22,777 nucleotides of DNA from a virus, in the IMG/VR virus record IMGVR_UViG_3300031801_001157, positions 1 through 22,777 of that record; one strand, written 5' to 3'. A program made the position numbers and the translations under genes. This document shows, piece after piece, positions 3,548 through 22,502 of the stretch; positions within the stretch are counted from its first letter, which is position 1; each line of letters starts with the position of its first letter. The notes beneath the pieces were generated by a model. The model was not told the DNA's origin, searched no databases, and was given only the letters and a program-made list of their open reading frames with translations.

Positions 3548-4445
3548 ATACTACTTCCTTTTCTCTATATATTAAATAAGTACTACCCACTAACATTAAC
3601 AATCCACCAACTTGATACAATGTTGGTACTGTAGTTAAAAATAAAAATGCAAGAGATACACCAATAATAGGTGTAGAGAGTTCAAATATACCTGAATTGC
3701 TAGCTCCAATATTTTTCACTGCTGTCCAATAACATAGATATGCAATAAAACTTGCAACTACTGCCAAATATAAAATAGCTAATAGATTGTGTGGATTAAG
3801 TTCAGAAATCGTAACTGTTGGTAACTGAAACAATGAAACATAAACAAACACTTGTAAAAAATCATAAAACACGATTGTAAGTGGTTTATACTTCTTCATT
3901 ATATTTTGTCCTACTAACAAATATCCAACCCAAGTAACAACTGCTGCAATATCTAATAGTATACCAGTCGTATTAAGATGTTCTGTTGAAAAAGAAGGTA
4001 GAAACTCACAGGCAAATAATGCACCAATCGTTCCAAGTCCTAATGCTATCTTTCTATTATTACTAAACTTTTCTCCAAAGTAAAATACCGCTAAAAGTAT
4101 CAATACAAGTGGATACATATAGAAAATACCATAGATTACTGCTAAGTTAGGATCAAGTAATTCCCAAGCGAACCAATATGTAAGTAAATGTAATGACAAG
4201 AAAATACCATTACCAAGAAAATACTTATAATCTTGTTTTTCTATACGAAATAGATTCTCACCAGTTCTATATTTTTGAAACAAAATAGTTCCTCCGAACA
4301 GTAATGTAGCAAATAAGAATCTTGTTGATAACAAAGTTACCGTTCCTGCACCTTCTGCAAATATGTAACTTCCTGTAATCTCAAGACTTGACCATGCAAT
4401 TACTGCACCTGCCATAGCCAAGAAACCTTTTAAAAATTTATTCAT
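3537..4445 (-). CDS. EamA/DMT-family inner-membrane permease
   Basis: A 302-residue, strongly hydrophobic protein with about ten transmembrane helices arranged as two five-helix repeats, as in the drug/metabolite transporter (EamA) superfamily. The first half begins FLAMAGAVIAWSS and contains the short basic loops FQKYRTGENLF. The second half begins near residue 150 with TTGILLDIAAVVTWVGYLL and has the typical SFIAYLCYWTAVKNIGAS and GVSLAFLFL segments. Members export or import small metabolites; substrate cannot be predicted from sequence alone. A full-length permease is unusual in a phage genome and suggests acquisition from a host. It overlaps the porin-like gene by 8 bases and the SET gene by 11. 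With the outer-membrane protein it may form an envelope-crossing pair, which is inference only. Confidence 0.85.
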   Translation of the reverse strand: MNKFLKGFLAMAGAVIAWSSLEITGSYIFAEGAGTVTLLSTRFLFATLLFGGTILFQKYRTGENLFRIEKQDYKYFLGNGIFLSLHLLTYWFAWELLDPNLAVIYGIFYMYPLVLILLAVFYFGEKFSNNRKIALGLGTIGALFACEFLPSFSTEHLNTTGILLDIAAVVTWVGYLLVGQNIMKKYKPLTIVFYDFLQVFVYVSLFQLPTVTISELNPHNLLAILYLAVVASFIAYLCYWTAVKNIGASNSGIFELSTPIIGVSLAFLFLTTVPTLYQVGGLLMLVGSTYLIYREKEVVYDQ

Positions 4446-5265
4446 CTTCTTTTCCTCCTAAATATAACATATCAAGACCCCAGCCTAATTTAACTTTAAT
4501 ATCACCTTCACCACTAAATTCTGTAGAAATATAACGGCGTTCTCCATCATAAGCCCACATAAGTCCATATAATGGTTTACTTTCACCATCAAAGGTTTCA
4601 TATCCTGCGAGTAATGAAATACCAGTTGGTTTTCCAGTTGGTTTTATAACGGCTCTAATCCATTGAAAGTCATGACTTAAACTATATTCTCCAATATAAT
4701 TAATATACTTGTTCCAACCAACTACATCAATAATTTGAGAATTTTTATTATCTGCCGATAATGCTATAGATTGTCCTTTTATATCATAAGATACCCTTCC
4801 AACAGAATATCCTTCCCATTCATTTTCTAAATGTGAACCATAATAAGTTTCTATAAAAAAGTTTCCAAGTCCACCATAAAGACTAAAACCACGACCAATT
4901 TGTATCAATCCCACATTTTCACTTGTTTGGTAAGTAAACATATCTTGTCTTGTAAAATCAAGATACATAATATTCGAACCAAGTGGTATTGCTAATTGAC
5001 CAACTGCAAGTGTGAACTTATCAGAATAAGGTTTGTAAAATAATTCTTCAAACTCTATTCCATCTGGATTCCATGATGGATTAACAAAAACCGTAGCAAA
5101 CCAATCATCACTTTTTATTAAAGAAAATAAATACGGCTGGCCAAATGTCACATTATCACCTACTGTAGCATATCCATTTATTGTATTCTTTACTGTAATT
5201 TTAGATTGTGATAATAACATTGAAACCATTCCAAATATCATCAATAACCTTATTATTTTGTACAT
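4438..5265 (-). CDS. Porin-like outer-membrane beta-barrel protein
   Basis: A 275-residue protein with an N-terminal signal peptide (basic MYKIIR, then a hydrophobic run to about residue 20, likely cleaved near LLSQS). The mature part alternates short polar and aromatic strands, with segments such as FTLAVGQLAIPLGSN, GFSLYGGLGNFFIETYYG and YISTEFSGEGDIKVKLGW, which look like amphipathic transmembrane beta-strands of a small porin. The aromatic-rich C-terminal region fits insertion into the outer membrane, although the last residues are acidic rather than the classic terminal Phe. The gene has a strong AAGGAG Shine-Dalgarno. A second, decayed copy of its leader sits upstream of the next gene at 5922-5972. 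It overlaps the EamA gene by 8 bases. The role during infection is unknown; options are changed permeability or receptor masking. Confidence 0.7.
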   Translation of the reverse strand: MYKIIRLLMIFGMVSMLLSQSKITVKNTINGYATVGDNVTFGQPYLFSLIKSDDWFATVFVNPSWNPDGIEFEELFYKPYSDKFTLAVGQLAIPLGSNIMYLDFTRQDMFTYQTSENVGLIQIGRGFSLYGGLGNFFIETYYGSHLENEWEGYSVGRVSYDIKGQSIALSADNKNSQIIDVVGWNKYINYIGEYSLSHDFQWIRAVIKPTGKPTGISLLAGYETFDGESKPLYGLMWAYDGERRYISTEFSGEGDIKVKLGWGLDMLYLGGKEDE

Positions 5266-6378: not shown

Positions 6379-8004
6379 TTAGACTACGTCACACAGGCCT
6401 TTAGAGATCCACCATGAATCAGTGGTGCAGCCGGTAATAGTACCTTTTGATTCAGTATAGCCAGGTGTATGGCCCTGGTTCATATTTGCATTAGAATAAT
6501 AATGACATCTGCCCACTGATCCCCAGGTGGCTGGCCAAAAGACTTCATCATATTCTACATAGTAGGTAGCGGTAGCCCAATAATTTGACACACACGCCGC
6601 ATTATGTACTATCACTCCATTCGCATAATAATAATCCTGGGGTTCGACATTAAGTTCGCTAATAGGAAACACCTGTGTTGAAGATGAAACAACCGAAACA
6701 CTTGTTATCTTTAATGGTTGTCCGTCCTCACCTGCCAAATAATCTCCAACCGACAACTCTATTGTTGGTTTAAATTTCCATTTATTTTCACTTCCGCTAG
6801 TCAAAAGGTTTGTAAATGTACCAAATTTCTTATCACTATTTATTACGGTATATGAATCTGTGAATGAATCGGACCAGTTATTAATAACCTCAACATTTGA
6901 TTGGGATGGTATTGACAAGCTTGAAGTTTCCCAAAGTTTCCACCTATAATTACCACACTTGTTAGCATACCCATCCGATTCATCGGGTAATCCACTAATA
7001 TTACGGACTTTTAAGAACGACCCTGTAACTACATTTTCTATATTTGTATGGCTATCATCAGACATCAATACTTGGCTGCCTGTCATGGCACCCCTTCGTG
7101 TAATAATAGTAGTCGCATAAGAACCCGAATCTCCTGATAAAATATAACAAGGCAATTGAGTTTGGGTAACATTCGTATCTGCTATAATTGAACCACGTGG
7201 TTGTAAATAAATATTTTCTTGTGGAGTCAACATCACAACACTCCTTACCTCGGAATAATAGGCCCCATTATAATTCAAATCGGGTAGGATAAACTCCTCA
7301 CAATAAGATTGAGAAAGTAAATAATTTTTATTATCATCCGTTATATCATAAAACTGAAACCAATTCATAACTAAAGTTTGATTATCCTCTGTCGGATCTT
7401 TAATAAGTACATCTGGAACACCAACACCATTAGAAAATACAGTAGGTAAATCTGCTATTTTTCTTGGCATCAAGGATTCAAGTCCAGATCCAGTTGTAAA
7501 ATTTCTAAATTCTCTTTTATCTGATGCTAAATAATCAATAGGACTTGCAGAATCAAATCCAAATCGTAACACAAAAGTAGTATTAGGAACATCAAAATCT
7601 GGTACAACAGCAGGATACTCGTCTTGAACATAAATACTTGATGTAAGACCATCACTCTGTAAACTGGCTGTTATATTACCCACTATGTTCAGGGGTGGCA
7701 TAACATTTCCTTCTTCGTTTCGTGTAACCAAAACTATAGTATCATAATTATTTGCCTTCCACCAAGTAACGGCATTATCTAAAAAATTAGGTTCTGGTGG
7801 AGTTTGAATATTTGTATTAAATTCTACTAACTTTAATGATCCACTTGAAGGGACCCAATCATATCCAGCGATTACTCCATAATTATTACCCTTTCCTGCC
7901 CAATATTTAGCATTACTCCCTGTTAAAAATGGGGCTGCAGCCTGTAAAGACTGAGTTACAATAGAACTACTATAATTATTAAAACTAAAATAATTTAATT
8001 TCAT
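6379..8004 (-). CDS. ATP-grasp-like protein with degenerate Hint-like domain and Cys-containing tail
   Basis: A 541-residue multidomain protein that I do not recognise as a whole. Residues 33-290 resemble a circularly permuted ATP-grasp fold: GYDWVP...LKLVEFNTN (47-65), then SDKREF (161-166), SLMPR, VLIKDP (199-204) and EEFILP...SEVRSVV (236-257). Residues 305-470 resemble a Hint (intein/hedgehog) domain: GSQVLMSDDSHTNIEN (309-324) for the N block and DYYYANGVIVHN (457-468) for the C block, ending in His467-Asn468. The usual N-terminal nucleophilic Cys is missing; Gly305 falls there by my alignment, so cleavage or splicing is doubtful. Residues 471-541 form an aromatic and Cys-containing tail (Cys471, 500, 526, 538). 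The last 80 codons are about 45% GC, against roughly 30% nearby, which suggests a transferred module. The N-terminal half is a paralogue of 8970-9557. Confidence 0.6.
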   Translation of the reverse strand: MKLNYFSFNNYSSSIVTQSLQAAAPFLTGSNAKYWAGKGNNYGVIAGYDWVPSSGSLKLVEFNTNIQTPPEPNFLDNAVTWWKANNYDTIVLVTRNEEGNVMPPLNIVGNITASLQSDGLTSSIYVQDEYPAVVPDFDVPNTTFVLRFGFDSASPIDYLASDKREFRNFTTGSGLESLMPRKIADLPTVFSNGVGVPDVLIKDPTEDNQTLVMNWFQFYDITDDNKNYLLSQSYCEEFILPDLNYNGAYYSEVRSVVMLTPQENIYLQPRGSIIADTNVTQTQLPCYILSGDSGSYATTIITRRGAMTGSQVLMSDDSHTNIENVVTGSFLKVRNISGLPDESDGYANKCGNYRWKLWETSSLSIPSQSNVEVINNWSDSFTDSYTVINSDKKFGTFTNLLTSGSENKWKFKPTIELSVGDYLAGEDGQPLKITSVSVVSSSTQVFPISELNVEPQDYYYANGVIVHNAACVSNYWATATYYVEYDEVFWPATWGSVGRCHYYSNANMNQGHTPGYTESKGTITGCTTDSWWISKGLCDVV

Positions 8005-10647: not shown

Positions 10648-11811
10648 TTAATCCTCTAATAAATCTGTCATATTAGTTCCCATAAATCTATCTTGCCAAT
10701 ACGACTTTTTAACATTCTCATTTAATATTCTCACTAAATCATTATAATCTGGATGATTCTCCTTCCAAACTGCCTTCTTTTTATATTCTTTATCTGTAAA
10801 AATTCCCCAATTAGTAATCTTAGCAAAATAAACATAGATACTTTTATTTCCACTTTCTTTTACTAATTTATCTCTTAATTTTATAAATTGTGGTATCTCT
10901 TTATAATTTGTATCTTGAACTACCATACTTATTCCAAACCAGGGAACTTCTTTTGGAATAAATTTTAAATTTTCCATCAATTGATCCCAATCTCCACCTA
11001 TCCTAACTTTCTCATAAGTTTTTTTAGTTGCTGCATCAATAGATATTTCTGCATCTGTAACTAATCCGTGAATGTCGGACATCTTATTCCATATTTCCTT
11101 TGTCCACTTTGTTCCATTGGTATGAAGTCTAATACTTTTTATACTTGGAAAATCTTTTTTCTTAAAATTTAATAAAAATTTTCTCAATGTTGCACTACCA
11201 AACGGATCTCCTGTTCCAGTAATAAATAATTTTCTCGTTCCTTCTTGAATTACTTTAATCACAGAATTTTGTATTTTTTCAATTAACTCAAATTCTTTTC
11301 CTCTTGGTGTTATTAATTCAATTCTACAAGATGGACAAGATAAATTACAACTTCTATCATAATCCATTTTTACAACATCTGGAGCCAAAGGTAATTCTGT
11401 TAATTGTTTTTCTATTATATCTCGGTGTTGTTCTCCCCTTTCCTCATATAATAATTCTATATCTTTCATTTTTCTAACTGCTGGAGCTGATTCAATAGAA
11501 CCTACATTCGGTTTACTATGTACATTTTGTAAATGTGGACATAAATTTTCATTACAATATTTGAATGAACCATCTAAAATAGATTTTCTGAACTCTTGGG
11601 CCTTTTCACCATTCCAAATATCTTCCCATTTATCTGTATAAAGATTTCCAAAATCATATCCTGCTAGATTAGTATCATCTTTCAACCAACCAGGACAACA
11701 AGGATAAACATCACCATTTACATTTGGACTACTTTCTGGTTCTCCAGTATGACCTATCTCAGCCCATCCACCCATTGCAATAGAACAATATAATTTATCA
11801 TCAGAATTCAT
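10648..11811 (-). CDS. Radical SAM enzyme with N-terminal SPASM-like cysteine segment
   Basis: A 387-residue enzyme. The radical SAM 4Fe-4S motif is CNLSCPSC (Cys155, Cys159, Cys162) after MDYDRS, followed by an RLHTNGT strand and the VTDAEISIDAATKKTYEKVR segment typical of the SPASM-linked subfamily. Ahead of it, residues 9-91 carry Cys9, the pair Cys38-Cys39 in VYPCCPGW, GNLYTDKWEDIWNGEKAQEFR and a CxxxxC pair (Cys86, Cys91), which is the usual SPASM/auxiliary-cluster layout but placed N-terminally instead of C-terminally. No comparable cysteine cluster is seen at the C-terminus. SPASM enzymes modify peptides, proteins or carbohydrates. The ATG shares one base with the ClpP stop codon. The substrate is unknown; a sugar or peptide in the neighbouring cassette is possible. 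Confidence 0.82.
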   Translation of the reverse strand: MNSDDKLYCSIAMGGWAEIGHTGEPESSPNVNGDVYPCCPGWLKDDTNLAGYDFGNLYTDKWEDIWNGEKAQEFRKSILDGSFKYCNENLCPHLQNVHSKPNVGSIESAPAVRKMKDIELLYEERGEQHRDIIEKQLTELPLAPDVVKMDYDRSCNLSCPSCRIELITPRGKEFELIEKIQNSVIKVIQEGTRKLFITGTGDPFGSATLRKFLLNFKKKDFPSIKSIRLHTNGTKWTKEIWNKMSDIHGLVTDAEISIDAATKKTYEKVRIGGDWDQLMENLKFIPKEVPWFGISMVVQDTNYKEIPQFIKLRDKLVKESGNKSIYVYFAKITNWGIFTDKEYKKKAVWKENHPDYNDLVRILNENVKKSYWQDRFMGTNMTDLLED

Positions 11812-12419
11812 TAAATAATTTCATCAACCAATCCCAAAGTTTTACAGGTTTCTGCATCCCATAATAAATCATGTTTTAATATTTCATCAAGTTTCTTCAT
11901 TGGAACTTTAGTATATTTTTTATACACATCTTTAATGGTTTTCATCATTAAATCAAGATTCTGTTTCTCATCCTCAAAATTAGCGTATGTTCCCCAAAAA
12001 TTACTTGATAGTTGATGTATCAACATATAAGAATTTCTACTCATAAATCTATAATTACCAACTATTGAAAGAAATGTGGCTGCACTTGCCGCAAAACCAT
12101 CTACATAAGTGTGAACTGGAACTTTACATCTCAATATCGTATCCATAGATGAAATACCTGCGGTGATTGAACCACCACCTGAATTTATCAATATTTTAAG
12201 TACAGGTGGATCTATATCTAAAGTATTTGCTAATGTCAAACTTTTTGATTCTATCTCACCTATCTTTTTATTTAATTCTACTGCACTTTCTCTGTTTACA
12301 TTAGAATAATAATAAATCTTATTCTCGTGAACTGATATATGTTTTTCTGGTTTACCACCATTTGGTTGTGCATCTTTTTTAGTAGGTGGTTTCTTTTCAC
12401 CCCAATATTTTTCATTCAT
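11811..12419 (-). CDS. ClpP-like serine protease (copy 1)
   Basis: A 202-residue ClpP-fold protease. The glycine-rich strand is LINSGGGSI (about 77-85), the nucleophile motif is DGFAASAATF with Ser112, the histidine is in MLIHQLS (His135) and the acid is probably Asp184 in KHDLLW. The end GLVDEII is typical of ClpP. The first 30 residues are polar and Lys/Pro-rich and probably disordered. In phages such proteins act in head maturation or in other proteolysis, and here the neighbours are gp44 and a DUF4494-like gene rather than capsid genes. The start codon overlaps the stop of the 70-residue gene by 4 bases (ATGA), and the stop shares a base with the radical SAM start. It is a paralogue of the gene at 134-742. 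Confidence 0.87.
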   Translation of the reverse strand: MNEKYWGEKKPPTKKDAQPNGGKPEKHISVHENKIYYYSNVNRESAVELNKKIGEIESKSLTLANTLDIDPPVLKILINSGGGSITAGISSMDTILRCKVPVHTYVDGFAASAATFLSIVGNYRFMSRNSYMLIHQLSSNFWGTYANFEDEKQNLDLMMKTIKDVYKKYTKVPMKKLDEILKHDLLWDAETCKTLGLVDEII

Positions 12420-12638: not shown

Positions 12639-13559
12639 TTATTTTATTATTTGTAATATTTCTATTATCATTGCCATTGCATTGATTTCCTTATCAACCA
12701 CTTGGGCATCACTTAATTCATATTTTGCTATAACCAAGATACAGGTGGCGATATGCCCTTTACCATAAGTATCAACTTCATCATATAGAAGTCGAAATAA
12801 ATCTGCAAAATCTGTAACCTTTGCATCTGCCATCAACTGACGAGTGTTATTAAATGCACTTTTTCTATCTTGGGTTTCTAATATCTTTAACAACTTTAAT
12901 TTATAATCATTCTCTACAATACTCTGTTTATCAATGACCAATTTACCATCAATACATTGTCGTTGTGCAGAATTTATAACTCGTCTTATATCAGGATAAC
13001 CACTATTCACTAACAATCCAATATCAGATAATTCTGATTCAATTCCTTCTTGTTTTAGAATATTACTCAAATGAACAGCCACCTCTTTCTTATTTGGTGG
13101 AATGACCTGGAATGTCTGACACCGAGATTGTATCGGGTCAATTATTCTCTCTACGAAATTACAAGTTAAAACAAATCTACAATGTTTACTGAATGTTTCC
13201 ATTAGGTTACGAAGTGCGGCCTGTGCGTTAGGTGTGATATAATCACACTCGTCCAGTATGATGACCTTGTAATCCTTGAACCCCATTGTAGATGCAAAAC
13301 TCTTAACCTTTGTCCTCACGGTTTCTACATTGTTTTCATCCGATGCGTTAATATACAAATAATCACATTCTATATTATTAACGAGTAGTTTTGCAAGAGT
13401 GGTCTTACCTGTACCTGCCTTCCCAAACAGTAAAAGATGTGGTAAGTCTCCACTATCCAAATAAACCTTGACTTTACTTTTTAATTGGTCATTACCAATG
13501 TAAGTATCAAGATTGGAGGGCCGGTATTTTTCTACCCATAGAGTATGTTCATTTTGCAT
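12639..13559 (-). CDS. 44: Clamp loader large subunit, gp44 (AAA+ ATPase)
   Basis: A 306-residue clamp-loader ATPase of the T4 gp44/RFC type. The N-terminal LWVEKYRPSNLDTYIG is the RFC box; Walker A is GKAGTGKT (residues 46-53), Walker B is ILDECD (101-106, where RFC proteins have DE(A/C)D), and the arginine-finger SRC motif is QSRCQTF (Ser145-Arg146-Cys147). T4 gp44 has 319 residues, so the length is as expected. Together with gp62 it opens and loads the gp45 clamp for the gp43 polymerase. In T4 the gene lies next to 62 and 45; here it is about 8 kb from 45 and 10 kb from 62. It overlaps the upstream GT2-type gene's stop by 11 bases in the downstream direction. Confidence 0.92.
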   Translation of the reverse strand: MQNEHTLWVEKYRPSNLDTYIGNDQLKSKVKVYLDSGDLPHLLLFGKAGTGKTTLAKLLVNNIECDYLYINASDENNVETVRTKVKSFASTMGFKDYKVIILDECDYITPNAQAALRNLMETFSKHCRFVLTCNFVERIIDPIQSRCQTFQVIPPNKKEVAVHLSNILKQEGIESELSDIGLLVNSGYPDIRRVINSAQRQCIDGKLVIDKQSIVENDYKLKLLKILETQDRKSAFNNTRQLMADAKVTDFADLFRLLYDEVDTYGKGHIATCILVIAKYELSDAQVVDKEINAMAMIIEILQIIK

Positions 13560-14457
13560 TTGTTAATTCCTGTAAATATGTATTAAATTCTTCTTCAAAA
13601 TCTTTTGATGACATTTTATTTTCTGAAAAACCACCTTTGAGGTGAGTTAGAAATGGCTCATCCTTGTAGTAATATGTATGTAACGTATCTTCCGTTTCCC
13701 AATTTGGATTATCATAATAAGGACCTAAATGAAGATATTTTAAATTATTATAAAGACAATAGGCAGTTGCACCGTGATTGGTATCACCATAGTACCAGTC
13801 TACATTATAAGTATCAAAGAATTTTCTCTTACACAGGAAAAAATACGCATCTGCGAATCCAATCTTTTTCGTTTTTACATATCCACCGTGTTCAGGTCGT
13901 AATGTAACTGGTTGTTGTGAATATTCTTTAATATATCTATCTAAAAAATCTTTATTCAATAGATAAGTTGAAATCCATATCTTTTTATTATCAACTGAAA
14001 TATATTCTAAATCTTCTTCTTCCATTTGTTTAATCATTTCATCTATACAATCTTGATGATAAAAAGTATCGTTATGTTGTAACACAACATACTCACCTTT
14101 TGCTTCTTGTATTCCCAAATGAAATGCCATGGATGCCCACATAGTATCATTTCCAAAATTGTCTAAACTCAATTGTATATCTCTATGATTCATAAATTCA
14201 GGAATCTTTTCAAGTTCTTCAAGTGGTAATGCTTGCCATCCTTTAATTACCTTAACATTTGGTAAATCTACTTCTGGCCAAGTATGACTATTATCTACTA
14301 ATAAAATTTCTTTTTCACATTTAAGTGAATTAATATTTTTAATTGTTTTTGTTGTAGCATCTATCACATTTGACGTATCAGAATACTCAAATCCCTCATT
14401 TATATTTAAAAACTTATCTTTTTCTATTGTAGAAAAGGGTATAATAAAACTAATCAT
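13549..14457 (-). CDS. Glycosyltransferase, family 2-like
   Basis: A 302-residue protein with a GT-A-like fold. It starts with the strand MISFIIPFS, continues with KEILLVDNSHTW, where family 2 enzymes have the VDDGS-type nucleotide-binding turn, and has GIQEAKGEYVVLQHNDTFYHQDCID near residues 116-140, in which HND takes the place of the metal-binding DxD. The later part has FFLCKRKFFDTYNVDWYYGDTNHG, a typical acceptor-side segment. The enzyme probably transfers a sugar to a glycan or protein using a nucleotide sugar. The replacement of the first acidic residue in DxD by His is unusual and could change metal use. The gene overlaps gp44 by 11 bases and the SGNH gene by 8, so it is co-translated with replication functions. 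Confidence 0.78.
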   Translation of the reverse strand: MISFIIPFSTIEKDKFLNINEGFEYSDTSNVIDATTKTIKNINSLKCEKEILLVDNSHTWPEVDLPNVKVIKGWQALPLEELEKIPEFMNHRDIQLSLDNFGNDTMWASMAFHLGIQEAKGEYVVLQHNDTFYHQDCIDEMIKQMEEEDLEYISVDNKKIWISTYLLNKDFLDRYIKEYSQQPVTLRPEHGGYVKTKKIGFADAYFFLCKRKFFDTYNVDWYYGDTNHGATAYCLYNNLKYLHLGPYYDNPNWETEDTLHTYYYKDEPFLTHLKGGFSENKMSSKDFEEEFNTYLQELTNAK

Positions 14458-15177: not shown

Positions 15178-17235
15178 CTAATATCCTGAATATTCTTGAA
15201 ACTCATTTAAAAAATCTTCTATATTTCTTTTATTGTTATTCTCATAATATTTTATAATTTTTCGTAAATCTACCCATCTTGCATACTCTGAATCTAAATC
15301 TATCCACCTCTCTACTAAACTCGATGGTTCTATACCACGTAAAGTAAAACTGCCTGTATATGCACAATTTAGTAATCCATATCTTCTATACTTACAAACT
15401 ATTCCTGTATCTTCATATTTTGTTGGCCAGTTAATATATAATTGTTTTTTTTCTACTGACTTTAAAATTTCTCTGTTTCTCGGATAATCTGCTATCCATT
15501 GTGGAGTTCTCATATATAAAGTATCAAGATAAAATTTGTGAGTATCATATGCTAAATCAAACATATCTACCATCAGCTGTTCAAGTTCTTTTAATGTAGT
15601 CTGTTGTCCATCTCGTTTTGTAATAATAATATCAATATCCTTTGTTTTCTCTGGCCAGGATATGAAACCACCAGTTAAATAATAATTAAATTTATCAAAA
15701 TATTTATGATGTTGTATATCCATTAACCAATTAACAAATACATCAATATTAGGAACAATCGGATAAACATCTTCATTTCGTAACCAACTCTTTTTTATTA
15801 CTCTCTGTTGAAACTTATCAATTACTATCGGTCTTTTTTTGGTTTCATCTACCAATTCACCATCAACTGTAAATCCCATTACTTTAAATTTATTAATTCT
15901 CTTGAGAAGATTTGCAGGAAATTGATTGTTTAAATCACTATTAGGAATCAATCTTTTATTTTCTATGTCCTCAAAATATGTTTCTGGATATTTAAAAGTT
16001 TCTGTTCCAAAATCAAAACATCCAGCGGATATTGTAAAATCAGAATAACTCTTATTTAAATTTTCATAAGTACCTAACAATTTTTTATCATAAACAAGTG
16101 ATACAGTTAAATTATTAACCTCATAGTTTATAAATAATGGTGTTTTGTGTAAAAATTTAAAATTCTTTCTAAAATAATCATCTACATTTTTAAAACTTTT
16201 ATCGTCCACAAAATAAAAATCCAAATCAGTATTTAATGGTAAATTCATAAATAATCTTAAAATGGATCCTCCCATTAAATAAACATTATTCTTTTTCAAT
16301 ACTTCTATATCGATATTATTTGATTTCAGTATTTTCAATAATTTATTTCTCAAATACTTATTTTCAAACTTAACTCGATTATTTAAATAAAGTGGATAAA
16401 ATCTTAAATTATTTGGTGAGTATTGTGGAAAATATTGAGAAAAATGCTGAGCTATAACTCCATCATTTTTATAATCAATATTATCTTTTATAGTATCACC
16501 TATTCTATTATATTCTTCTCCCGTTTTATTATAACCTATTTCATAAATTGTTTTAAATTTATCACCGAGTATTTCCCATTTGCCATAAAATAATAAACTC
16601 CAAAATCCCTGACTCCAAACCGCTAACTTATAGTATTTATCATGAACTTCTTTATATTTTTTAAATATATCGTTTCTTATAAATTGTTTATTTAATAATA
16701 AAAAACAACCCTGTATGGCTGGTTCATTCCATCCAAGATAATCTTTTAATTCTTCCAATTTCTTTTTATCTGATACATTTAATTGTTCTATCATTTCTTC
16801 TCGCCATACAAATTGGTATTGAAGTGATATATCATTACAAGTATTTGCGTATAAAATATCTTTTCGTTTATTATCTAAATCAAAATCTATTTTATTGAAA
16901 TACCACACATCAAGATCAGTATAGAAAATCCAATCCCATTGTTTAAAATAATCATTACCAAATAGATGAATTTTATAACAATTTATTGGATGAAATTTTA
17001 CATCTAAAGTAGTGTTTAAATCTAATGGATATTTTCCTTTTTCGAGATTAGGTAAAAAAAGTATTTGAACATCATTATAATTGAATAAATCAACATCCAC
17101 AAATTCTTTATCTTCCTCGGGCACCATCAATACTAAATCACCATCCCATTCTCCTTCTTCTCGTACATTCGTGAATAGGCTTTTTGCATGATTTATATAA
17201 TCTTTATTTGCTAACGTAACTAAAACTTTTTTCAT
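15178..17235 (-). CDS. Glycosyltransferase fused to two nucleotidyltransferase-like domains
   Basis: A 685-residue protein with three apparent modules. Residues 1-285 look like a GT-A glycosyltransferase: KVLVTLANKDYINHAKSL at the start, and the metal-binding DxD in FYTDLDVWYF (Asp107, Asp109). Residues 310-460 resemble a polymerase-beta-type nucleotidyltransferase: LMGGSILRL (320-328) and TDLDFYF with Asp337 and Asp339, then ANLLKRINKFKVMGF, which recalls the segment after the active site of CCA-adding enzymes. Residues 515-600 repeat this pattern: LTGGFISW (520-527) and KDIDIIIT with Asp533 and Asp535. The start overlaps the previous gene by 32 bases and has no good Shine-Dalgarno, so coupling is likely. 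A possible role is making a nucleotidylated glycan, which is inference. I do not know a described family with this architecture. Confidence 0.7.
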   Translation of the reverse strand: MKKVLVTLANKDYINHAKSLFTNVREEGEWDGDLVLMVPEEDKEFVDVDLFNYNDVQILFLPNLEKGKYPLDLNTTLDVKFHPINCYKIHLFGNDYFKQWDWIFYTDLDVWYFNKIDFDLDNKRKDILYANTCNDISLQYQFVWREEMIEQLNVSDKKKLEELKDYLGWNEPAIQGCFLLLNKQFIRNDIFKKYKEVHDKYYKLAVWSQGFWSLLFYGKWEILGDKFKTIYEIGYNKTGEEYNRIGDTIKDNIDYKNDGVIAQHFSQYFPQYSPNNLRFYPLYLNNRVKFENKYLRNKLLKILKSNNIDIEVLKKNNVYLMGGSILRLFMNLPLNTDLDFYFVDDKSFKNVDDYFRKNFKFLHKTPLFINYEVNNLTVSLVYDKKLLGTYENLNKSYSDFTISAGCFDFGTETFKYPETYFEDIENKRLIPNSDLNNQFPANLLKRINKFKVMGFTVDGELVDETKKRPIVIDKFQQRVIKKSWLRNEDVYPIVPNIDVFVNWLMDIQHHKYFDKFNYYLTGGFISWPEKTKDIDIIITKRDGQQTTLKELEQLMVDMFDLAYDTHKFYLDTLYMRTPQWIADYPRNREILKSVEKKQLYINWPTKYEDTGIVCKYRRYGLLNCAYTGSFTLRGIEPSSLVERWIDLDSEYARWVDLRKIIKYYENNNKRNIEDFLNEFQEYSGY

Positions 17236-17785
17236 ATCTATATCTTTGATCTATATCTACTAAATAAATTTTACCATCATCTGTTTTTATACAATTTTTA
17301 GGAACACATTCTTCTTCAATAGTTGCTCTCCATCCTCGTTTTTTTGCAATAGCTGATTTATGTCTATAAATTTTATTTTCATTACAAAAATCCACCAAAC
17401 TATTTATCCATTTTTTATCTGGTTGAACATGAATTCCTCTAATATTATCCATTTTTATTGCAAAATATTCTTGGGGATCATCACAACACTTCATAATTTC
17501 ATATGGATGTGGAGCAAATCCACCATTAGACAATATATTCTGTATATCAAACAAAAGCTTTATATCTAATTCACTTGTAAAAATTTTATACCCATAATCC
17601 TTATCTTTACTTCCCAAAAACCTACAAAATTTTCCTGTAAAATAATATCTATCTTTTGTAGAAATATCAACTTCCCCTTCTGCTCCTTCACTATATGTAT
17701 CCCATTTCCCTACTGATTGATATCTATCTCCGTTAAAATCTATAATATCATTTTTCAACCATAACTTTATTGGAATCATTTTCAA
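17204..17785 (-). CDS. Small protein with kinase-fold-like C-terminal motif
   Basis: A 193-residue protein not recognised as a whole. Residues 157-179 contain EEECVPKNCIKT then DGKIYLVDID, which resembles the catalytic-loop and DFG-like pair of aminoglycoside-phosphotransferase/RIO-type kinases: Asn164 and Asp177 are in place, but the usual HxD is replaced by glutamates. GYKIF (Lys67) could be the ATP-binding lysine, and FAIKMDNIRGI (108-118) looks like a hinge strand. No glycine-rich loop is evident and the domain is small, so it may be a pseudokinase or a sugar kinase reduced in size, as seen in some capsule and LPS clusters. It overlaps the glycosyltransferase fusion by 32 bases and the MORN gene upstream by 4. 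Moderate to low confidence for the fold; good confidence that the gene is real. Confidence 0.5.
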   Translation of the reverse strand: MKMIPIKLWLKNDIIDFNGDRYQSVGKWDTYSEGAEGEVDISTKDRYYFTGKFCRFLGSKDKDYGYKIFTSELDIKLLFDIQNILSNGGFAPHPYEIMKCCDDPQEYFAIKMDNIRGIHVQPDKKWINSLVDFCNENKIYRHKSAIAKKRGWRATIEEECVPKNCIKTDDGKIYLVDIDQRYRYEKSFSYVSK

Positions 17786-18411
17786 AAACTTACTTCTTTT
17801 TTTAACACACCATTATCATGATATATTTTTGCACTACCAACTGGATTTCCAAAGTCAAACTCACATTCTAATTCTTTTTTTCCATTGTGATACCAAAATG
17901 TCCAGTTACCTTCCATCATACCATATAACATATTACCTCTTGCTCTTTCGTTATTATTTAAATGATAATCAATATATTCTCCATGAAGTTTACCATCTTT
18001 CCAAGTTTGAACTTTATTCTTCTTAACGAACAAACCTTTGTATTGATGATAAAATTTCAATTTTCCATGTTTTTTACCATTTTTATAATGAACAACAGAC
18101 CTCAATTCTCCAGTATCATAAAATCCCCTTTCTACACCATCTTTTTTATTATTCTTCATTTCACAAATCAAATTTAATTGTCCATTCTTATGATACCATT
18201 CCCGAATATCACCGTTTTCGTGTGGTGCACCAAGATTATATAACTTTCTATTTTCTATTTCAAGTTCCAACTCGTTTATCAATTTCAACTCTAAGTCTGG
18301 ATTTTCATCTCTCCATTTCAGATATTCTTTATACCTTGGATCGAATGACAGCACTACCTTTCCACCAATCTCTATTACATTTTCATTGTTTGAAACTTTT
18401 TTATATTTCAT
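17782..18411 (-). CDS. MORN-type (YwqK-like) repeat protein, short
   Basis: A 209-residue protein. The first 60 residues (charged, SFDPRYKEYLKWRDENPDL) are unique and predicted partly helical. From about residue 65 it consists of repeats of roughly 23 residues with the pattern NG-x(4)-WYHKNGQL and YKNGKKHGKLKFYH, the MORN_2 repeat found in YwqK-family proteins. Its last 38 residues are almost identical to the end of the larger MORN protein just upstream, and the DNA of that tail is about 91% identical. MORN repeats form beta-hairpin arrays that bind proteins or membranes. The YwqK family is sometimes named as an antitoxin, but no toxin is evident here. The gene begins two bases after the stop of the long paralogue. 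Confidence 0.72.
   Translation of the reverse strand: MKYKKVSNNENVIEIGGKVVLSFDPRYKEYLKWRDENPDLELKLINELELEIENRKLYNLGAPHENGDIREWYHKNGQLNLICEMKNNKKDGVERGFYDTGELRSVVHYKNGKKHGKLKFYHQYKGLFVKKNKVQTWKDGKLHGEYIDYHLNNNERARGNMLYGMMEGNWTFWYHNGKKELECEFDFGNPVGSAKIYHDNGVLKKEVSF
17801..17916 (-). repeat. Direct repeat, copy 2: C-terminal coding tail of short MORN gene
   Basis: About 116 bases match 18433-18548 with roughly 10 mismatches by eye, and the first 43 bases read on the plus strand are identical. The repeat encodes the shared C-terminal segment WTFWYHNGKKELE to IYHDNGVLK. The similarity is much higher than that of other MORN units within the region, which points to recent duplication or gene conversion. 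Confidence 0.85.
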
Positions 18412-18413
18412 CT

Positions 18414-20534
18414 TTAAAAACGTATCTTTTCCTTTAACACACCATTATCATGATATATTTTTGCACTACCAACTGGGTTTCCTAAGTCTAAATTAAATTC
18501 TAATTCTTTTTTTCCATTGTGATACCAGAATGTCCACTTACCATTCATAGCAGATAAAAACATCATTCCTTCTGATTTTTTTTGTCCATTAAGATGGTAC
18601 TCTATATAGTTTCCATTCATTTTTCCATTTTTATATAACACTTTAGATTTTATTTTTTTATCCGGATAACTAGGATTATATTCAGAAGGATAAAATGATG
18701 TCCATTCTTTATCCTTTTTATTTTCATTATAAAATCCGGTTGATTTTAGAGAACCTTGAGAATAATACTGAGTCCATTTCCCAATCTTCTGGCCTTTTTC
18801 CAATTTCCCCGTTTCAAATATTGCACCATCTCCATGATAAATACTTGACTTATCTGACTGCAAACCATCTTTATAATATAAAGACTTCCAAAGAATACCA
18901 TCTGAATGCCAAAATTTTACTTTACCATCTAACTTGCCATTTTTATAATTTTCTTCCTTTCCTACTATTTCATCATCATGCCAAGATTTCCAAGTTCCTA
19001 CTTTTTTATCATTTTTATATTGACCTTTAAGAATAATTATACCATCATTATCTAACCCAAAATATTCACCATCTAACTTACCATCTACATAATTTAATTC
19101 ACCAGATTTTTTTCCAGTATCTTCATCAAATTTAAACCACTTCCCAACTCTTTTACCATTTTTATAATTACCTTGATATTCTTTTTGTCCATTATCATAA
19201 CAATATATCCACTTACCAACTTTATTATTATCTTGATATTGTCCTATATATTCTGGTACTTCATCATATCTCCACCTCTTAAAAACACCATGTTTTTTTC
19301 CATTTACATAATTTTCTTCTGACCAATGTTTACCATTTTTATGCCAAGATATCCAATGTCCTATTTTTTTTCCATTGTCATATTCTTCATGTGCAAGAAC
19401 TTCTCCGCTTGGATGATAATAAATCCATTTATCATGTCGTTTTCCATTAACATATACTAAATTACCCCTTTTAGGACCTTCTTTATAAAAAATAATCCAT
19501 TTACCTTCCTTCTTATCATCTACCATTACGCCTTGTGTTCGTGTTTTACCTTGTATATAATATTCTACATATTCTCCATTCAATTTATTATTCTTATAAA
19601 ATTTATCTTCAAAAACCTTACCATTTGGATGAAATTTCATTGACTTTCCATTCAAGATCCCCATCTTATATATGACAGTTTCTTTAGTTGATCCGTTTGG
19701 ATAATAATCCCACCATTTTTTATTTTTAGTTCCTAATAACCAATGTTTAACACTCGATAAATTTCCTAACGAATTATATTCTGTACACTCACCGTGTAAT
19801 TTTCCATCTTTATATCTATAATTTTTCCACATCTTACCATCTGGGTGCCATTCCTTCACTTTACCATTTAATTCATCATTTTTGTAATTTTCTTCTTTAC
19901 CCACACTTCCATTATCGTTAGTATAAACCCATTTACCTATTTTTTTATTATTTTTATATTGTCCATCAAGAATAATTAAACCATTGTCATTTAACTCAAT
20001 ATATTTACCATTTACATAATTTAATTCACCAGATTTTTTTTCAGTATCCTCATTAAACTTAAACCACTTCCCAACTTTTTTATCATTTTCATAATTACCT
20101 TGATATTCTTTTTTACCATTATCATAATAATAAACCCATTCACCGACCTTTTCATTGTTTTTATAGTTACCTTCACTCTCTACAATTCCACCAATTCTTA
20201 CCTTTTTATGGTATCCCTCTTTTTTATTATTTTTATATTTTTCGGTATTCCACATTTCACCATTATCATGAAACATTTTCCATTCACCAACTCTCTTACC
20301 GTTGTTAAATTTTCGATAAATATTCAACTCACCATTTGAATGATATATTTTCCACTCACCATGTGGTTCTCCATTTATCAAAGTATATTTTTGCCAAAGT
20401 TGTCCATCACCATGATTATAAGAATGTTCTCCATCTATTACACCCAAACTACAATCATGCTTTCCATCTGTATACCAGTCAATAGATTTTATTTTTAAGT
20501 CATCAAAAACTAAATATTCGCCGTTTTTTTCCAT
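18414..20534 (-). CDS. Large MORN-type repeat protein
   Basis: A protein of 706 residues made almost entirely of MORN_2-type repeats of about 23 residues, roughly two dozen in total, with the core GKWxxYYDNGKKExxGxYKNxKKV. ATG at 20534 is chosen; an in-frame TTG two codons upstream (20540) is the alternative, and neither has a strong Shine-Dalgarno. A block of about 125 residues is present twice inside the gene (coding about 19790-20160 and 18850-19235), so it grew by segmental duplication of five or so units. The composition is rich in Lys, Asn, Tyr and Trp. No signal peptide or transmembrane segment is visible. In this position it may be a scaffold or an adhesion-type protein, but no function can be assigned. 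The tail is shared with the short MORN gene downstream. Confidence 0.8.
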   Translation of the reverse strand: MEKNGEYLVFDDLKIKSIDWYTDGKHDCSLGVIDGEHSYNHGDGQLWQKYTLINGEPHGEWKIYHSNGELNIYRKFNNGKRVGEWKMFHDNGEMWNTEKYKNNKKEGYHKKVRIGGIVESEGNYKNNEKVGEWVYYYDNGKKEYQGNYENDKKVGKWFKFNEDTEKKSGELNYVNGKYIELNDNGLIILDGQYKNNKKIGKWVYTNDNGSVGKEENYKNDELNGKVKEWHPDGKMWKNYRYKDGKLHGECTEYNSLGNLSSVKHWLLGTKNKKWWDYYPNGSTKETVIYKMGILNGKSMKFHPNGKVFEDKFYKNNKLNGEYVEYYIQGKTRTQGVMVDDKKEGKWIIFYKEGPKRGNLVYVNGKRHDKWIYYHPSGEVLAHEEYDNGKKIGHWISWHKNGKHWSEENYVNGKKHGVFKRWRYDEVPEYIGQYQDNNKVGKWIYCYDNGQKEYQGNYKNGKRVGKWFKFDEDTGKKSGELNYVDGKLDGEYFGLDNDGIIILKGQYKNDKKVGTWKSWHDDEIVGKEENYKNGKLDGKVKFWHSDGILWKSLYYKDGLQSDKSSIYHGDGAIFETGKLEKGQKIGKWTQYYSQGSLKSTGFYNENKKDKEWTSFYPSEYNPSYPDKKIKSKVLYKNGKMNGNYIEYHLNGQKKSEGMMFLSAMNGKWTFWYHNGKKELEFNLDLGNPVGSAKIYHDNGVLKEKIRF
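18433..18548 (-). repeat. Direct repeat, copy 1: C-terminal coding tail of long MORN gene
   Basis: Counterpart of the repeat at 17801-17916, offset by 632 bases. It ends the 706-residue protein. Confidence 0.85.
18850..19235 (-). repeat. Internal segmental repeat in MORN gene, copy 2
   Basis: Encodes the block that begins NKVGKWIYCYDNGQKEYQG and continues through KKSGELNYVDGK and KGQYKNDKKVG to KFWHSDG. It is the second copy of 19790-20160 and is about 12 bases longer, because it has four extra codons after the KKSGELNY segment. Boundaries are approximate. Confidence 0.7.
19790..20160 (-). repeat. Internal segmental repeat in MORN gene, copy 1
   Basis: Encodes EKVGEWVYYYDNGKKEYQG through KKSGELNYVNGK and DGQYKNNKKIG to KEWHPDG. 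The non-canonical spacer KFNEDTEKKSGELNY recurs as KFDEDTGKKSGELNY in copy 2, which shows this is a duplicated block and not just the short MORN periodicity. Boundaries are approximate. Confidence 0.7.
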
Positions 20535-20549
20535 ACCCAACCAGATTCT

Positions 20550-21773
20550 CTACTTTTTTTCCCATATCCAAACAGGTTCACAAAATTTACCATCGAACCT
20601 TTTTATCATTTCAGGCTCTCTATTACTCTCACCTGACTCGACACCTGTGCCGGCACCTAATGAGTTAGGTCTAGCTGCCATCTCCATACCTATACACCCA
20701 AGATAATCAGAATCTTTAAATGTATCTATAAATTCATTCATTGGATCACATATTGACAACCACCCTTTCTTCTTCTTACCTTGACTACTGGCATTCACAT
20801 CAGAAATATTCACACATAACTTTCCACCACTACGTAAAGATATCCACATATTTTCTATTGAACTCTGTAGGAAGTTCACGTTCCACTGGTCTATGTCTTT
20901 ATACCTTACCCAACTTTGTGTATCATCATAACTATATCTCTCTACATTAAAATAAGGTGGTGATGTAAAGATAATATCAAACGTATCTTCATATTGGTCA
21001 AAATCAAAGTCCTCGGCGGCATCACAATGAAATACAGTTTTCTTTGGTGTTTCGAAGAAAGTCAAATGTTTATCATAATATCGGGCTTGTTCTTCATAGA
21101 TGGGATGATTCTCCTTACGAGGATCAATACCAACATATAGTTCGGTATTCATACTGGCATAAAACCCAGCCAACCTATCACCCCAACCTGCAGAGAAATC
21201 CAATACATTCTTTACATCGAAATAATCATACAGAGCCTTAGCCGCGTTTGGTTTGAACTGACTACAAATGTATTTTCTCAACCCTAACATAGTTCTCAAT
21301 ACCGACTTATCAATCTTCTCCATCTTCAATGTATAGGCTGCACCCATTAGTGAAGTCATAAACTTCAACTCACTCCAAGTCCGTAAAGGACCTGGTGAAA
21401 TAGTTCCATCTACTGACCATCTGTTTTCTTGTTGAAAGAAATTAGATGATTTATTACCTGTATTGTTTCTCTTGATATATCGCTGTGAGCCTTTGTAAGT
21501 TAAAGGCCACTCATATCCGTTCTCAGCTCTAGCAAACCATTCACCTTCTTGTAGTAAATCATGAACCCAAGTGCCCTTCAGTTTACCAAAGTCCTTTCTA
21601 CATTCATTTTGACTTATCTCTTGATATGGTGGTGGATAAGTCATGGCGACTTTTGCCAGACTTTCCTTTACATCATCCTTCTCGAATGTATCTTTAATGA
21701 AAGTCCATTCTTTCTCGTCAATATAAAGATAAGGAACCTGATAAAGGAACTTATTAAAGTAAGGTAAGTACAC
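20550..21773 (-). CDS. TSPPY-type DNA methyltransferase (copy 1)
   Basis: A 407-residue SAM-dependent methyltransferase. Motif I is LDFSAGWGDRLAGF (about 191-204), and motif IV is TSPPYF (270-275) in IIFTSPPYFNVERYS. A C-terminal strand, GGKLCVNISDV, completes the Rossmann-like sheet. The extended match to the enzyme at 751-1836 (GWGxRLxGFxAS and TSPPYFxxExYSxxxTQS) shows common ancestry, but the N-terminal 180 residues differ. The family modifies bases in DNA (N4-C or N6-A); target sequence is unknown. The start at 21773 is GTG; the next in-frame ATG (residue 44) would cut off conserved-looking sequence. It follows gp45 after 9 bases and precedes the MORN gene, so it is probably expressed with the replisome. 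Confidence 0.8.
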   Translation of the reverse strand: MYLPYFNKFLYQVPYLYIDEKEWTFIKDTFEKDDVKESLAKVAMTYPPPYQEISQNECRKDFGKLKGTWVHDLLQEGEWFARAENGYEWPLTYKGSQRYIKRNNTGNKSSNFFQQENRWSVDGTISPGPLRTWSELKFMTSLMGAAYTLKMEKIDKSVLRTMLGLRKYICSQFKPNAAKALYDYFDVKNVLDFSAGWGDRLAGFYASMNTELYVGIDPRKENHPIYEEQARYYDKHLTFFETPKKTVFHCDAAEDFDFDQYEDTFDIIFTSPPYFNVERYSYDDTQSWVRYKDIDQWNVNFLQSSIENMWISLRSGGKLCVNISDVNASSQGKKKKGWLSICDPMNEFIDTFKDSDYLGCIGMEMAARPNSLGAGTGVESGESNREPEMIKRFDGKFCEPVWIWEKK

Positions 21774-21782
21774 TACTCTGAT

Positions 21783-22502
21783 TTAGTCTACATCTTGAAC
21801 GGCCACAAGAAAGTAAGTGGCATCATAATCATCAACCTTAAAATTGATTTTTGACAATCCTTGCTCACTAACATATAGTGTTGCACTTTCACATTCCTTG
21901 TTTGCCACTAATACATCTTTGAATAGATTTGCATTAAATGACACATTTTCTATACTTGATGATGCTGTAGTTTCAACTGGAATTGTAACTCTGTTTGTAT
22001 TGATTGCAGAATAACCTATTACAAGTCTAACTCCACCATCGTCAGTAATTACCGTGAAGGTATCTGTATCTGGTAATGCAGATTTACCACTAATGAACCT
22101 CTTAATGAAATTGGAATCCACCTTGATCTCTACCTGGAATTCAGGAAGCTTTTTTAGTGGTGGTGGTTGATTGATAACTGATTTATCCGACAACATAAAG
22201 TTGACTTTAGATAGTGCATCAGAAATCTCAACTGCGATTGCTTTATCACCTGCCTGTGTTAAATTAAGAGTTACATCATCATCCAAAACACCTAATAATC
22301 TACTAAGTTGTTCTGTATCATAAACTCCTAATTCAGCATCTTGGAATGTCCAATTCTTCATTTTTAATTCACCGAGTAGTGCTTTATCTCCAGTCATGAA
22401 ACGAGTCATTAAACTGTCTCCTTTACTATTGATAACTACAGCATTAACATTACCACTTAAATGGTACTTATCAATGAATCGAGTTAATTTATATTTGTTC
22501 AT
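21783..22502 (-). CDS. 45: Sliding clamp, gp45-like
   Basis: A 239-residue protein in the size range of T4 gp45 (228 residues). It begins NKYKLTRFIDKYHLSGN and contains the typical gp45 segments VYDTEQLSRLLGVLDDDV (about 60-77), where the clamp loop lies, and INQPPPLKKLPEFQVEI (about 110-126), a linker between the two domains. Two domains of similar fold follow one another, as expected for a trimeric ring. The clamp tethers the polymerase to DNA and in T4 also activates late transcription. A clear Shine-Dalgarno (AAGGAG) precedes the ATG. The polymerase tail lies 61 bases upstream. Identity rests on length, recalled motifs and position between gp43 and other replication genes. Confidence 0.85.
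   Translation of the reverse strand: MNKYKLTRFIDKYHLSGNVNAVVINSKGDSLMTRFMTGDKALLGELKMKNWTFQDAELGVYDTEQLSRLLGVLDDDVTLNLTQAGDKAIAVEISDALSKVNFMLSDKSVINQPPPLKKLPEFQVEIKVDSNFIKRFISGKSALPDTDTFTVITDDGGVRLVIGYSAINTNRVTIPVETTASSSIENVSFNANLFKDVLVANKECESATLYVSEQGLSKINFKVDDYDATYFLVAVQDVD

Follow-up and report, generated by a model that had tools for sequence, protein, structure and literature searches.

A phage protein joining a GT8-like glycosyltransferase to two nucleotidyltransferase-type domains, with an interchangeable N-terminal partner at one locus

Large phages are known to encode nucleotidyltransferases of the Pol-beta type for RNA repair as well as polymorphic clusters of glycosyltransferases (PMC7824862). 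The nucleotidyltransferases of jumbo phages, such as RlaP and the phage CCA enzymes, are predicted to restore RNA ends (PMC7824862). Another relevant protein is the anti-Gabija protein Gad2 of SPbeta-like Bacillus phages, the mechanism of which, according to the literature, has still to be worked out (PMC12904381). The window, i. e. the whole stretch of DNA analysed here, is an IMG/VR virus record of 22,777 bases. It encodes a protein with three domains: a GT8-like glycosyltransferase domain followed by the two nucleotidyltransferase-type domains NT1 and NT2, the latter being the structurally weaker assignment. Both carry complete catalytic triads, and in related phages the N-terminal partner at this locus is interchangeable. 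With the jumbo phage enzymes the protein shares the presence of phage-encoded Pol-beta nucleotidyltransferases, but no match to RlaP was obtained in Pfam with the whole protein or the set of NT1 sequences, and no RNA ligase was identified in the window. Each of the domains is of a known kind or similar to one, and it is the architecture of these known folds that is new: no description of a tandem nucleotidyltransferase core with a swappable N-terminus was found in the literature searched. We consider it probable that the protein is a modular fusion, in which a GT8-type glycosyltransferase has been joined in a hypervariable region to a tandem NT1-NT2 core that otherwise exists alone.

The fusion protein and its domains

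The gene and the segments encoding its domains are as follows:

15178..17235, minus strand: GT8-NT1-NT2 fusion protein, 685 aa; single open frame with ATG, full-length homologue in contig L001
16366..17235, minus strand: GT8-like GT-A glycosyltransferase domain, residues 1-290, DxD at D107/D109; from AlphaFold and VIA-align
15826..16359, minus strand: NT1, nucleotidyltransferase resembling the PolyA_pol/CCA head, residues ~293-470, with G322-G323, D337, D339, D399, R446 and K449; from PHROG, profile and Gad2 homology
15181..15783, minus strand: NT2, divergent minimal Pol-beta-type nucleotidyltransferase with a conserved C-terminal extension, residues ~485-685, with G522-G523, D533, D535 and D571; from the model and VIA-align

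The reading frame is intact (ATG at 17235, stop at 15178), the plus-strand frame across 15178-17235 is crowded with stops, and the homologue in L001, an independent contig, is full-length (71% in the best segment). The initial annotation had noted a glycosyltransferase DxD and two GG...DxD motifs in one 685-residue chain, and all three pairs of aspartates are present: D107/D109 in YTDLDVW, D337/D339 in the stretch MGGSILRLFMNLPLNTDLDF after G322/G323 of MGGS, and D533/D535 in the stretch TGGFISWPEKTKDIDI after G522/G523 of TGGF. The third catalytic aspartate that it proposed to look for was found in both nucleotidyltransferase domains, as D399 in the DFTI motif of NT1 and as D571 in YLDT of NT2. 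All six carboxylates are invariant across nine NT1-NT2 proteins (from the window, L001, L046, L049, L041/L045, L002, L031, L033 and the truncated L048, in which the partner is unreadable), and both domains of every homologue keep the glycine motif, bar one change from GG to GS. The pattern hG[GS]x(7-14)DhDh matches the protein twice and, apart from it, only one further ORF of the window; in residue shuffles it appeared 0.015 times per protein and never twice in 5000 trials.

Scans with the whole protein (Pfam, PHROGs, PDB, NCBIfam, PADLOC) gave nothing useful, and results came only from searches domain by domain. In the AlphaFold model of the full protein, most of residues 1-230 and 290-460 is predicted with confidence. 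The domain content that had initially been proposed stands for the glycosyltransferase, with its structural match to GT8, glycogenin and LgtC, and for NT1, with its profile match to class II CCA and poly(A) enzymes; for NT2 it is retained with a Z score of about 5 on a modest model.

Residues 1-290 have a GT-A fold, modelled with pLDDT values mostly of 80-95 up to residue ~230 and lower thereafter. In VIA-align, LgtC (1g9r) superimposed with a Z score of 18.6 and an rmsd of 3.3 over 232 aa, followed by GlyE (Z 18.0), glycogenin (Z ~17) and the GT8 protein 3tzt (Z 15.7). The domain shares with these enzymes the fold, the DxD, which is conserved among its relatives, and, in most homologues, a C-terminal motif resembling HF...PW, but it is fused to nucleotidyltransferases and falls below the Pfam GT8 cut-off (PF01501; no match for the window domain, E 0.71 for the best family member). 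It is therefore termed GT8-like rather than a member of GT8. Relatives were found at 19 viral contig loci, some of them in marine phage contigs; most are free-standing proteins of 245-290 aa. A PDB match to a topoisomerase was at chance level.

NT1 has the elements that define the Pol-beta superfamily, i. e. hG[GS], Dx[DE] and a third carboxylate on a later strand (G322-G323, D337, D339 and D399), and most of it is modelled with pLDDT 70-96. Searched alone, it matched phrog_18122 (1e-10) as well as further phage families, of which some are named nucleotidyltransferase or tRNA nucleotidyltransferase, and in an NT1 homologue (L005) PF01743, the head domain of poly(A) polymerases, scores above cut-off (4e-5). 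When a profile of 18 NT1 homologues was compared with the PDB, 13 of the 15 matches were poly(A) polymerases or CCA-adding enzymes, with E values from 7e-4 to 1.5e-3 and the poly(A) polymerase 3aqk as the best. D337, D339, D399, R446 and K449 are invariant in these homologues (18/18), which come from phages of many hosts. The alignment places D399 opposite the Asp of RRDFTIN and R446 opposite the Arg of EDxxR, the nucleotide-selecting motif of class II tRNA nucleotidyltransferases. NT1 thus has the GG-x-DxD, the third Asp on the DFTI strand and Arg446 in common with the head of class II CCA-adding enzymes and poly(A) polymerases (PF01743), but it differs from them in three respects: (i) The RRD motif of class II CCA enzymes is absent, with S-D-F-T in place of RRDFT. 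(ii) The ED of EDxxR is missing from all 18 homologues, and only the Arg has been retained. (iii) The helical neck, body and tail domains for tRNA were not found after NT1; NT2 begins within ~20 residues. Since NT1 lacks ED and RR, and with them the CCA specificity motifs, CCA addition would not be the activity to expect.

The closest named annotated protein is Gad2 of the Bacillus phages SPbetaL6/L7 (E 3e-4 to 7e-6, 27-32% identity, same triad). The homology does not span the full ~400 aa of Gad2: only residues ~5-165 align, and these align to NT1, whereas nothing in the present protein corresponds to Gad2 residues ~170-400, and Gad2 has neither NT2 nor GT8. The N-terminal domain of Gad2 thereby joins a broad family of phage proteins, in which the active site of the CCA/poly(A) polymerase type is complete but the CCA specificity motifs are lacking, and this placement predicts nucleotidyl transfer dependent on the three named aspartates. 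Among the PDB matches listed for the full model, every row is taken up by the glycosyltransferase; viral structural matches to NT1 cover ~185 columns, and a BFVD match to Pseudoalteromonas phage J2-1 agrees with the tblastn match of NT1. In unrelated phages, NT1 homologues are encoded near genes for DNA ligase or for RecT, SSB and Holliday resolvase (L066:498-1841, L067:3064-4416, L068:227-3509), neighbours that hint at nucleic-acid work. No relatives were found in plasmids, and a pattern scan of a collection of genomes from 84,980 species gave none at that sensitivity.

NT2 was found only within the T4-like marine phage group of the window; its family search gave no match beyond weak PHROG ones, and neither tblastn in phages nor the pattern scan of the 84,980-species collection revealed a relative at that sensitivity. 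Predicted alone, it yields a modest model (pTM 0.71, pLDDT 68), in which a first strand, the GG, a helix, a strand bearing DxD, a long helix and a third predicted strand bearing D571 follow one another. Nearly all rows in VIA-align were members of the Pol-beta superfamily (minimal nucleotidyltransferases, MNT antitoxins, AadA, CCA enzymes, Pol mu/beta) with a best Z score of only 5.4, and Foldseek with this model reached E 0.02 at best. G522-G523, D533, D535 and D571 are invariant in all ten NT2 sequences. These structural neighbours and the invariant GG-DxD-D support, but do not prove, the assignment of NT2 as a putative nucleotidyltransferase. The predicted core order is that of minimal nucleotidyltransferases, MNT antitoxins and AadA adenylyltransferases, the nearest structural neighbours (Z 5.0-5.4), from which NT2 differs by the lack of a sequence-family match and by its long conserved C-terminal extension (YMRxPQW, VDLRxIIKYY, FQEYSGY). 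An origin by internal duplication of NT1 is not supported (profile-profile probability 3%, with the motif alone aligning), and PDB matches to dynein and Csm2 were at chance level.

Partner exchange at a conserved locus

All NT1-NT2 loci occupy the same place in related T4-like marine phages, at most one gene before the genes for a GT2 protein and the clamp loader. In the two contigs with such a layout that reach far enough (window, L002), the clamp gp45 lies on the other side. The neighbours in the window are:

12639..13559, minus strand: T4-like clamp loader gp44, at one border of the variable region (identity to clamp loaders of phages up to 47%)
13549..14457, minus strand: GT2-family glycosyltransferase, constant neighbour of the locus (PF00535 4.5e-7; synteny)
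17204..17785, minus strand: upstream ORF overlapping the fusion gene, putatively kinase-like as judged by eye (AIKMDN...VDID) and synteny
17782-18411 and 18414-20540, minus strand: two MORN_2 repeat proteins (PF07661 1.3e-15 and 1.8e-29)
21783..22502, minus strand: T4-like sliding clamp gp45, at the opposite border of this region (match to phrog_223, DNA polymerase processivity factor, with 5.7e-13)

For the kinase-like ORF, a Pfam scan gave no credible match; in L001, its homologue immediately precedes the gene for the GT-fused version. The MORN_2 repeats are of the type that is fused to GT8 in L018. Their genes contain internal DNA duplications of up to 300 nt and very similar ends common to both neighbours; they are a possible recombination substrate adjoining the fusion gene.

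The N-terminus of the NT1-NT2 proteins was found in several forms: (i) The partner is GT8 in the window and in L001. (ii) In L046 and L049, it is a sulfotransferase, with weak matches to Sulfotransfer_3 and clear homology to free sulfotransferases. (iii) A TadA-like deaminase takes this position in L041/L045 (PF00383 5.6e-24 in L041). (iv) In L002, L031 and L033, NT1-NT2 has no N-terminal partner. Moreover, in L003 (2991-4025) a dCMP deaminase immediately precedes NT2 in a single protein, and NT1 is missing. Two contigs (L053, L060) matched in the DNA pattern only and are unrelated. Unfused genes for all three kinds of partner are also present in the vicinity: GT8 in L031 and L046, sulfotransferases in L001 and L002, and deaminases in L031, L048 and L001. 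The free GT8 proteins stop where the fused GT8 domain stops, and the free core of L031 begins where the fused NT1 begins; the GT8-core fusion is therefore one from end to end.

The domains differ in their degree of conservation. Between the window and L001, the identity is 93% for the glycosyltransferase, 46% for NT1 and 70% for NT2, and the NT1 domains of L001 and L046 are 85% identical despite their different partners. In most pairs, the conservation of NT2 (66-90%) exceeds that of NT1 (34-69%), and the trees of the two domains conflict, e. g. in the placement of L002. The simplest account of the mosaic identities and conflicting trees would be recombination at domain borders. N-terminal swapping on a constant tandem core points to marine T4-like phages building multi-domain proteins from neighbouring cassettes. 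That the protein is a chimeric assembly artefact, as metagenomic contigs with mosaic identities might suggest, is very improbable: the same fusion occurs in two contigs and other fusions elsewhere, every one of them is in frame, the domain ends are clean and the synteny is conserved.

Possible functions of the fusion

In the modular fusion that we favour, both NT1 and NT2 would be catalytic and transfer an NMP from an NTP to an acceptor by means of two metals, presumably held by D337/D339/D399 and D533/D535/D571. As the acceptor, our leading guess is the end of an RNA or a component of the host defence, in view of the CCA/poly(A) head fold of NT1, its kinship to Gad2 and the nucleic-acid-metabolism neighbourhoods of several homologues. 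The GT8 domain would transfer a sugar from a nucleotide sugar independently, and its substrate need not be shared with the nucleotidyltransferases. The fusion would have arisen from a hypervariable phage region that repeatedly joins neighbouring cassettes, rather than from one reaction that needs both activities. That GT8-NT1-NT2 has been kept in two independent contigs may reflect some selective advantage of tethering, and the glycosyltransferase, sulfotransferase and deaminase partners could have a class of substrates in common that is not apparent here.

The kinship to Gad2 can also be read as function: the nucleotidyltransferase core would modify or block a component of host immunity, with the N-terminal enzyme as an accessory that varies with the host defences. 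The homology of NT1 to the N-terminal half of Gad2 (at the E values given above), the polymorphic N-terminus at a single locus and the fact that Gad2 itself still awaits a mechanism (PMC12904381) make such an effector a possibility, though a rather unlikely one. However, the identity is only 27-32%, NT2 takes the place of the C-terminal half of Gad2, most members of the broad NT1 family have no known function, and a search of a defence library with the full protein gave no match. It is tempting to speculate that NT1-NT2 is the constant core of a polymorphic counter-defence protein that swaps its N-terminal enzyme and disarms bacterial immunity or modifies host RNA, a proposal that we regard as rather doubtful; its layout would be analogous to that of the polymorphic effectors of bacteria, here turned by a phage against the bacterium that it infects.

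The many glycan-type enzymes in the region suggest a different setting, a cluster for surface glycans or virion decoration, in which GT8, GT2, sulfotransferase, FkbM, PfkB kinase and SGNH-like proteins act on sugars and the nucleotidyltransferases prime small-molecule or sugar acceptors. Cyanophage clusters with PfkB kinases and glycosyltransferases have been proposed to alter surface polysaccharide (PMC7824862). Yet nucleotidyltransferases of the Pol-beta type are not the usual sugar-nucleotide synthases, a role for which HIGH-type enzymes are named (PMC7824862), and the deaminase partners do not fit; we judge this setting to be somewhat unlikely.

Two further proposals go back to the initial annotation. 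According to the first, the protein is a coupled bifunctional enzyme: the glycosyltransferase adds a sugar, and the nucleotidyltransferases then nucleotidylate the same acceptor. The physical fusion in both the window and L001 as well as the kinase-like gene directly upstream in both would agree with this. However, the glycosyltransferase is missing or substituted in most homologues at the locus, three contigs having the core without it and others carrying chemically unrelated partners, and GT8 is joined elsewhere to unrelated proteins, i. e. to MORN repeats in L018 (3986-6169) and, in L016 (3713-5566), to an FkbM-like methyltransferase (assigned by eye), together with a short N-terminal module common to MORN proteins. 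The coupled enzyme is thus unlikely, and coupled chemistry should not be read from a single fusion. The second proposal, that catalysis is confined to one of the nucleotidyltransferases and the other has degenerated into a domain for regulation or scaffolding, is quite unlikely as well: the stronger conservation of NT2 in most pairs may indicate different roles, but both domains retain the three invariant carboxylates and the glycine motif in every homologue, with the single GG to GS change as the exception.

Further features of the region

In a related contig (L047:4070-6354, IMGVR_UViG_3300025727_000634), a split intein seems to break up the gene for the clamp loader gp44, which borders the locus in the window. 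There, the N-extein and the N-part of the intein (4070-4687) are followed by a free ORF of 297 aa, endonuclease-like by eye, and then by the C-part of the intein and the C-extein. The insertion site is the Walker B motif (LDEC|DF), and residues 1-105 and 105-306 of the window gp44 map to the two parts. The window itself contains an ORF of 541 aa (6379-8004, minus strand), the C-terminal third of which looks Hint/intein-like by eye (GSQVLMSDDSHTNIENV ... YYANGVIVHN), with no match in Pfam. Two ClpP-like protease genes are located at 134-742 and 11811-12419 on the minus strand (PF00574 3.1e-31 and 5.2e-26). Finally, two paralogous DNA-methylase-like proteins with weak matches to PF01555 are encoded at 751-1836 and 20550-21773 (minus strand), one of them beside the sliding clamp.
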